In this document: positions 61,230 through 63,936 of the stretch, piece by piece | Numbering within the stretch: position 1 is the first letter of the stretch | Layout of the letters: each line of letters starts with the position of its first letter | Source of the DNA: Flexistipes sinusarabici DSM 4947 | GTDB taxonomy: Bacteria; Chrysiogenota; Deferribacteres; Deferribacterales; Flexistipitaceae | Reading direction: 5' to 3' | Assembly: GCF_000218625.1 (NCBI RefSeq) | Contig: NC_015672.1 | Span: 124,001 to 188,000 of the forward strand | DNA length: 64,000 nt | Notes under the pieces: generated by a model | What the model was told of the DNA's origin: nothing | Database searches by the model: none | The model's input: the letters and a program-made list of their open reading frames with translations, nothing else | Made by a program: the position numbers and the translations under genes

Positions 61230-61264
61230 AAAAAAAGGCCGCAAGCGGTATACCGCCTGCGGCC
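61230..61264 (-). terminator. attenuator terminator in the aroF leader
   Basis: On the minus strand a long hairpin (GGCCGCA / TGCGGCC, a mismatch, then GCGG-TATA-CCGC; 61237-61264) is followed by a run of T at 61230-61236. It lies about 25 bases before aroF. Its GCGGTATACC part (61247-61256) can instead pair with GGTGTGCCGC at 61298-61307, over the last codons of the leader peptide, forming a 10-bp antiterminator with two G-U pairs. Confidence 0.87.
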
Positions 61265-61293
61265 TTGGTTTACTTGGTATTATACTACCCGAC

Positions 61294-61413
61294 CTACGCG
61301 GCACACCCCGAATCTCTGTTATAAAAAAAGAAAAAATAGAAAGAAAAATATTGAGAAACAAAAGAACTTGACGTGCCTAAAAAATTGAGTGCGGGTAAAC
61401 TATTTTTAATCAT
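61294..61413 (-). CDS. Phe/Tyr-rich leader peptide of aroF
   Basis: A 39-codon frame from ATG 61413 to TAG 61294. Residues 18-31 read FVSQYFSFYFFFFY, with six Phe and three Tyr in the last ten, then NRDSGCAA and stop. The stop lies just before the attenuator stems. Stalling at Phe/Tyr codons when these charged tRNAs are scarce would free the GGTGTGCCGC segment to form the antiterminator; completing the peptide would cover it and let the terminator form. No ribosome site precedes the ATG. The mechanism is inferred from the established pheA-type model. Confidence 0.85.
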   Translation of the reverse strand: MIKNSLPALNFLGTSSSFVSQYFSFYFFFFYNRDSGCAA

Positions 61414-61419
61414 GTTAAA

Positions 61420-61448
61420 TTAATATAGTGCGATAAAAATTATGTCAA
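61420..61448 (-). promoter_or_regulatory. promoter of the aroF leader transcript
   Basis: On the minus strand TTGACA (61443-61448), a 17-base spacer and TATTAA (61420-61425); TATATT at 61422-61427 is an alternative -10 with a 15-base spacer. Either places the transcript start within a few bases of the leader-peptide ATG at 61413, so the leader may be translated from a leaderless end. Confidence 0.65.
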
Positions 61449-61470: not shown

Positions 61471-61498
61471 AAAAGCGGAGGTAAACCTCCGCTTTTTT
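61471..61498 (-). terminator. intrinsic terminator after hcp
   Basis: Stem GCGGAGG / CCTCCGC with loop TAAA (61475-61492), an A-run before and T-run after; it works on either strand. It sits at the hcp stop and just upstream of the aroF promoter. Confidence 0.88.
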
Positions 61499-63276: not shown

Positions 63277-63936
63277 ATGAATAAAGATGCCGCAGTTAAA
63301 ATGTTTTTAAACATATTTACAGGCTCCCGGGATGAGGATGTTTATAAAACATTATATCAGATTAGCAGTGTTGTTAGCAAAGAGAAGAAAGAAATTTTTT
63401 TTCTGGAAGATGAGGAAGGCAGTCATATATACTTTTTGCTTTCAGGGGTTGTAAAGCTTTCCAAAACCAATGACGAAGGCAAAGAAGCCGTTATACACTT
63501 TGTAAAGAGCGGCGAAATTTTTGCGGAGATACTTCTTTATCTTAAAAACAGATATCCTGTTACTGCCACGGCACTGGAGGATTGTGAAGCTCTTGCAATC
63601 GATTCGAAAAAACTTTTTGACGAGATAAAAAGACAGCCAGAATTTTCAATGAAGCTTATAGGTGTGTTAGCGGGAAGGATTAAATACTTTGTCAATATGA
63701 TAGAAAATCTCACTCTGGCGGATACAAGAAAGAGATTTTTATCGTATCTCAATAATATTGCAGAAAAGCAAAATTCAAAAGTTGTAACCCTCCCAGTGAA
63801 TAAAGGTGAGCTTGCACTTCTTCTTGGAAGCACGCCGGAAACCTTTTCAAGATTGCTTAAAAAGCTGGCAGAAGAAGAGGTTATTGTGGTCAGAGGCAAA
63901 GAGATAACTCTGATTGATCTCGGTGAACTGCAATGA
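63277..63936 (+). CDS. Crp/Fnr-family transcriptional regulator (probable regulator of hcp)
   Basis: A 219-residue regulator: N-terminal cyclic-nucleotide-like sensor domain (FFLEDEEGSHIYFLLSGVVKLSKTNDEGKEAVIHFVKSGEIFAEIL), dimer helix, and C-terminal helix-turn-helix KGELALLLGSTPETFSRLLKKLAEEEVI. The recognition helix holds E-x-x-S-R, the combination that in FNR reads TTGAT half-sites. Only one Cys is present, so no FNR iron-sulfur cluster; a haem or other NO/redox sensor is possible. Divergence from hcp suggests an HcpR-like role. The stop overlaps the next gene (ATGA). Confidence 0.88.
   Translation: MNKDAAVKMFLNIFTGSRDEDVYKTLYQISSVVSKEKKEIFFLEDEEGSHIYFLLSGVVKLSKTNDEGKEAVIHFVKSGEIFAEILLYLKNRYPVTATALEDCEALAIDSKKLFDEIKRQPEFSMKLIGVLAGRIKYFVNMIENLTLADTRKRFLSYLNNIAEKQNSKVVTLPVNKGELALLLGSTPETFSRLLKKLAEEEVIVVRGKEITLIDLGELQ

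Follow-up and report, generated by a model that had tools for sequence, protein, structure and literature searches.

The interval between hcp and aroF in this 64,000-nucleotide stretch of the Flexistipes sinusarabici genome (hereafter the window, meaning the whole stretch of DNA that was analysed; the genome is a single contig of 2,526,590 bp) raises a question about the control of aromatic amino acid synthesis; namely, whether the Phe/Tyr-rich reading frame ahead of aroF is a leader peptide that governs transcription of the gene or a by-product of U-rich RNA, and where its translation would begin. A sequence-only reading had proposed a complete Phe/Tyr attenuator here, composed of a promoter, a 39-codon leader with Phe/Tyr-dense codons 22–31, a strong terminator and a competing antiterminator. 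All of these parts are present, and their coordinates and sequences proved correct. The locus shares the following features with trpL/pheL-type systems: a leader ORF with end-product codons, a terminator, a competing antiterminator, the matching placement of stop and control codons, and a pathway gene. We consider it highly probable that the locus is a ribosome-mediated transcription attenuator, through which aroF transcription follows the supply of charged tRNA-Phe and tRNA-Tyr.

The aroF leader region and its competing hairpins

The elements follow one another on the minus strand in the order hcp, hcp terminator, leader promoter, leader ORF, strong terminator, and the Shine–Dalgarno sequence (SD) and ATG of aroF. 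The hydroxylamine reductase gene hcp (63172–61502) is followed by its own terminator at 61497–61468, ahead of the leader promoter. This promoter combines a −35 element, TTGACA (61448–61443), with a −10 element, identified from sequence and promoter scoring within 61420–61427, that is either TATATT (61427–61422, spacer 15) or TATTAA (61425–61420, spacer 17). The unannotated leader ORF (61413–61294) has its ATG at the predicted +1, translates as MIKNSLPALNFLGTSSSFVSQYFSFYFFFFYNRDSGCAA* and ends with a TAG stop codon at 61296–61294; its control codons 22–31 (61321–61350) read YFSFYFFFFY, of which nine of ten are Phe or Tyr. A gene for a Crp/Fnr-family regulator, likely one that regulates hcp, lies at 63277–63936 and is divergent from hcp.

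Three RNA regions compete downstream of the leader start. Region 2, the antiterminator strand GGTGTGCCGC (61307–61298), overlaps the last leader codons and, as had been claimed, pairs over 10 bases with a segment of the terminator; eight of these pairs are Watson–Crick and two are G–U. The partner, region 3, is GCGGTATACC in the 5′ arm and loop of the terminator (61256–61247). Pairing continues beyond the stop codon to about 61290, and in this second, post-stop part of the antiterminator GGTC pairs with GGCC at the terminator base. The intrinsic terminator itself (61230–61266, ΔG −27.7 kcal/mol) comprises a stem at 61266–61235, AAGGCCGCAGGCGG TATA CCGCTTGCGGCCTT, and then a U tract. Region 1 (61370–61398) consists of 61398–61392 and GGCACGTC at 61377–61370; in MFE folds of the free leader it pairs with region 2 and with the sequence after the stop to give an anti-antiterminator. 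The fold of the 206-nt leader is better than those of all 200 shuffled sequences (z = −3.3).

The controlled gene, aroF (61207–60197, minus strand), is preceded by the SD GGAGG (61217–61213, ΔG −10.2) and encodes a type I-beta DAHP synthase with an N-terminal ferredoxin-like regulatory domain. The beta-type assignment made from sequence agrees with NCBIfam and Pfam (PF18152 and PF00793), and the nearest solved structures are PDB 4grs and the 1rzm/3pg9 enzyme. DAHP synthase catalyses the first step of the shikimate pathway, placing the downstream gene in the pathway of the amino acids that would be sensed. The gene appears to stand alone, because the next gene is on the opposite strand. A second aroF, 52% identical, lies in a pheA–hisC–aroF–tyrA–aroA operon; we looked for an attenuator there and found none, and saw no Phe/Tyr leader ahead of pheA, the first gene of that operon. 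We also scanned 864 kb, a third of the genome (40 stretches, L065–L104, plus the window), for a short ORF with at least 7 Phe/Tyr residues in its last 18 codons followed by a terminator and a long ORF, and found no other such locus.

Conservation of the leader and the modelled effect of ribosome position

A phylum-wide search of 51 genomes identified orthologues that are 59–99% identical in families f1–f5 and f10. The genomes searched appear to include those of Deferribacter, Calditerrivibrio and Denitrovibrio, and f10 appears to correspond to Desulfurispirillum (Chrysiogenetes). In all 26 orthologues for which the upstream region was read, including that of the window, a Phe/Tyr-rich leader ORF ends with its stop codon beside the antiterminator strand, and a terminator follows ahead of aroF; these orthologues span six families and two classes, and L110 provides a 27th leader. 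Conservation of the leader frame in relatives had been set in advance as a test, and the Phe/Tyr run is indeed kept in every orthologue examined. Outside this run the leaders, which are 16 to 41 residues long, diverge widely between families. Tyr codons are enriched (9.3% of leader residues), and the leader peptides of f10 end in FWQ[FY]YF(F), thus containing all three aromatic amino acids. The terminators have ΔG values of −20 to −29 kcal/mol and a U tract in all cases (in L027 the terminator is the first hairpin, the automatic pick having taken the second). Because the sequences further upstream vary from family to family, we assign the element to aroF. In f6 and f7 only the operon-borne paralogue or copies of lower identity are present, with no leader among those read. 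In family f8, a distant DAHP synthase copy (L105:654–1004) that may lack the N-terminal regulatory domain is preceded by a leader in which Phe, Tyr and Trp all occur (NYFFYGWY), and its antiterminator is long (−25.5 kcal/mol).

The second test set in advance was conservation of the alternative pairing, which is kept with compensatory changes. Antiterminator pairings of each leader with its own partner average −20.4 kcal/mol, compared with −17.4 kcal/mol between families, a difference matched by 6 in 100,000 family permutations (P = 6 × 10−5). Two-sided compensatory changes occur at three positions of the region 2–region 3 helix (position 5, U–A/A–U; position 6, G–C/A–U; position 8, C–G/U–A). 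Across the alignment, 177 of 207 cells are paired in the proposed register compared with 25–49% in shifted registers; these pairs were counted on a hand alignment, because the MAFFT alignment misplaced region 3 in part of f5, and an alignment made by eye leans towards the proposed pairing, whereas the family permutation test is independent of any alignment. The antiterminator energy is no better than that of shuffled sequences in L012 and is only weakly better in L020, L027 and L028.

From this arrangement we infer that the leader is translated and responds to amino acid supply. RNA polymerase would begin on the leader ATG, give or take about one base, and a ribosome would load directly on the 5′-terminal AUG, as in leaderless initiation. 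If Phe- or Tyr-tRNA were short, the ribosome would stall in codons 18–31 and break the upstream 1:2 hairpin, leaving free the strand over the last codons and the stop; that strand could then pair with the 5′ arm of the terminator, so that no terminator forms and aroF is transcribed. If these tRNAs were plentiful, a ribosome at the stop codon would cover the antiterminator strand, the terminator would form and transcription would end before aroF.

To assess this geometry, we folded the leaders to the end of the terminator 5′ arm with the ribosome masked, assuming a footprint that extends 15 nt upstream and 12 nt downstream of the start of the A-site codon. No antiterminator formed with the ribosome at the stop codon, and one formed in nearly all species with the ribosome on the Phe/Tyr run; the pheA-type stalling geometry proposed earlier is thus borne out for most stalls within the run. 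When every codon was scanned with the upstream RNA masked as well, the run ended, in 26 of 26 leaders, at the edge of the zone that leaves region 2 free. This permissive zone takes in 226 of the 246 Phe/Tyr codons in the final 20 positions but 106 of the 264 other codons there, counts on which a Fisher test ignores relatedness, so that its nominal P value should not be taken literally. With a mask of the footprint alone, the 1:2 hairpin of the window’s species beats the antiterminator for stalls at codons 25–26 and does not win at codons 18, 22, 23, 28, 30 and 31; in a close relative (L004) it wins for most stalls from codon 23 on. The advantage of this hairpin disappears once the RNA already traversed by the ribosome is masked as well. 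A long 1:2 (protector) hairpin is present in the free fold in the window’s species, L004 and many f5 leaders, but not in f3 or f4. There the free leader already forms the antiterminator, and the untranslated state would therefore read through.

These observations bear on two other interpretations of the locus. The end of hcp is some 90 nt away from the leader, and the hairpin might merely terminate that gene, with the leader ORF a product of chance. We give this practically no credence, as a separate terminator for hcp precedes the leader promoter and the idea is contradicted by conservation: leader and hairpin go with aroF in genomes in which the upstream sequences differ. It is also very improbable that the 5′ region is controlled independently of leader translation, for instance by a riboswitch, a T-box or an RNA-binding protein, with the Phe/Tyr-rich frame a consequence of a U-rich, unstructured loop. 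The run is U-rich and is indeed looped out in the long leader hairpin, and U-richness alone yields Phe codons; however, it does not by itself account for the enrichment of Tyr codons. A frame, start codon and stop at the antiterminator strand are kept in all 26 leaders, and the run ends at the edge of ribosome clearance. Moreover, no Rfam family, T-box included, reached its gathering score, and permissive E-values returned sub-threshold AT-rich matches only.

Where translation of the leader would begin

The remaining alternative accepts the attenuator and places the start of the transcript further upstream, which would make a leaderless start illusory. Longer 5′ UTRs do exist among the orthologues: the distance from TTGAC to the ATG is 50–63 nt in genus g8 (family f5) and 56–76 nt in f10, and in seven of the eight leaders of these two groups an SD scores −5.8 kcal/mol or better. 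The window leader, in contrast, has no SD in the 20 nt before its ATG (ΔG +1.9), in keeping with the earlier claim that it lacks a ribosome site, and the terminator of the upstream gene (61497–61468) also speaks against a more distant start. Furthermore, all 18 leaders from f1–f4 and genera g5–g7 of f5 (five families) have TTGAC starting 35 or 36 nt ahead of the ATG, despite the lack of conservation of the sequence in between. Because of this exact spacing the ATG lies at the predicted +1, as the sequence-only reading had expected of the transcript start. Most of these 18 leaders are without any SD; SD-like motifs in g6, L005 and L006 are located at or upstream of the predicted −10 element and would therefore lie outside the mRNA. 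A start further upstream is, on this evidence, unlikely.

The same spacing recurs elsewhere in the genome. Within the 864 kb, 16 long ORFs carry TTGAC[AT] at 34–36 nt upstream of their ATG and lack an SD without exception, compared with about one ORF per distance elsewhere; several of the 16 are copies of the same transposases. Given this SD-less peak, the organism seems able to use leaderless initiation generally, and the pattern suggests that leaderless mRNAs are common in the window’s genome. The leader of the window is apparently leaderless too, as predicted from its promoter spacing and missing SD. If so, leaderless initiation would be a working part of attenuation outside Actinobacteria.

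Comparison of leaders with different start spacings points to evolutionary changes between the two modes of initiation. The promoter of L020 (g8) is almost identical to that of L025 (g5); L025 starts at the ATG, whereas L020 has an added stretch that bears an SD. In the AroF tree, g8 forms a clade (support 96/97) that groups with g5 (100/100), and f10 falls outside. With these placements, the mode of initiation would have changed at least twice, whichever was ancestral. Probably, then, the orthologous attenuator of a single phylum has moved between leaderless and SD-led translation of its leader: most families would use the leaderless form, and the SD-led form would occur in one derived genus and an outlying class. 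The same regulatory element therein offers a natural comparison of leaderless and SD-led initiation.

Relation to known attenuators

Switches of this kind are already known, as in pheL–pheA and the aroR–aroF system of Corynebacterium; the element described here would extend them across a further phylum. The leader of pheL has a normal SD and 5′ UTR. Escherichia coli pheL–pheA resembles our element in its Phe-rich leader peptide, its competing 1:2, 2:3 and 3:4 hairpins and the terminator before the structural gene, and differs in its target, chorismate mutase–prephenate dehydratase. Membership of the Rfam Phe_leader family (RF01859) was considered and rejected, as the gathering score of 55 was not reached: the coding strand has no match, and the opposite strand alone has a sub-threshold one (20.1 bits). 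Corynebacterium glutamicum aroR–aroF has a leader peptide (Phe-Tyr-Phe) ahead of a DAHP synthase gene, and ribosome stalling under Phe limitation is reported to raise expression (Neshat et al. 2014, as described in PMC11802643 and PMC4046766); one engineering paper calls this control translational (PMC7356990). It belongs to another phylum, and its three-residue Phe/Tyr motif differs from the long runs seen here.

The uORFC-13-1 motif of Acholeplasma, a predicted uORF that occurs exclusively upstream of aroF (PMC8632094), is similar by description in having a Phe-encoding U-run just before a terminator. It differs in having a ribosome-binding site and is known solely from Acholeplasma and environmental sequences. 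Leaderless attenuator leader peptides have been reported in Actinobacteria, for example trpL1, leuL2 and ilvL of Streptomyces lividans, from RNA-seq with 5′-end libraries (PMC8079986); they concern other amino acids, genes and a different phylum, whereas the start proposed here is deduced from promoter spacing. Naville and Gautheret (2010) were aware of leader peptide systems in Proteobacteria and Actinobacteria alone, to which they added a case from Firmicutes (PMC2965389). We found no report of leader-peptide attenuation in the present phylum in the open-licence literature. With the aroF element, such systems would reach one more phylum, in a fully conserved example that governs entry into aromatic amino acid synthesis. 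Some 27 small leader genes could also be annotated, together with a defined regulator of the stand-alone aroF isozyme.

Beyond this phylum, the leader is absent from most of the AroF homologues that we inspected in other phyla (L040–L064). Two homologues that are 74% identical, from MAGs labelled Nitrospirota or unclassified (L037 and L039), also have no leader, and their AroF sequences fall within the Deferribacterales part of the AroF tree; either the gene was transferred without its switch or the contigs were mis-binned. In Clostridia MAGs (L051:1227–1487, L052 and L058:2240–2500), Phe/Tyr-rich short ORFs (for example, MKAFRFASYYYYFTDSLR) and a terminator precede a DAHP synthase gene, and these candidates are possibly independent aroF attenuators.
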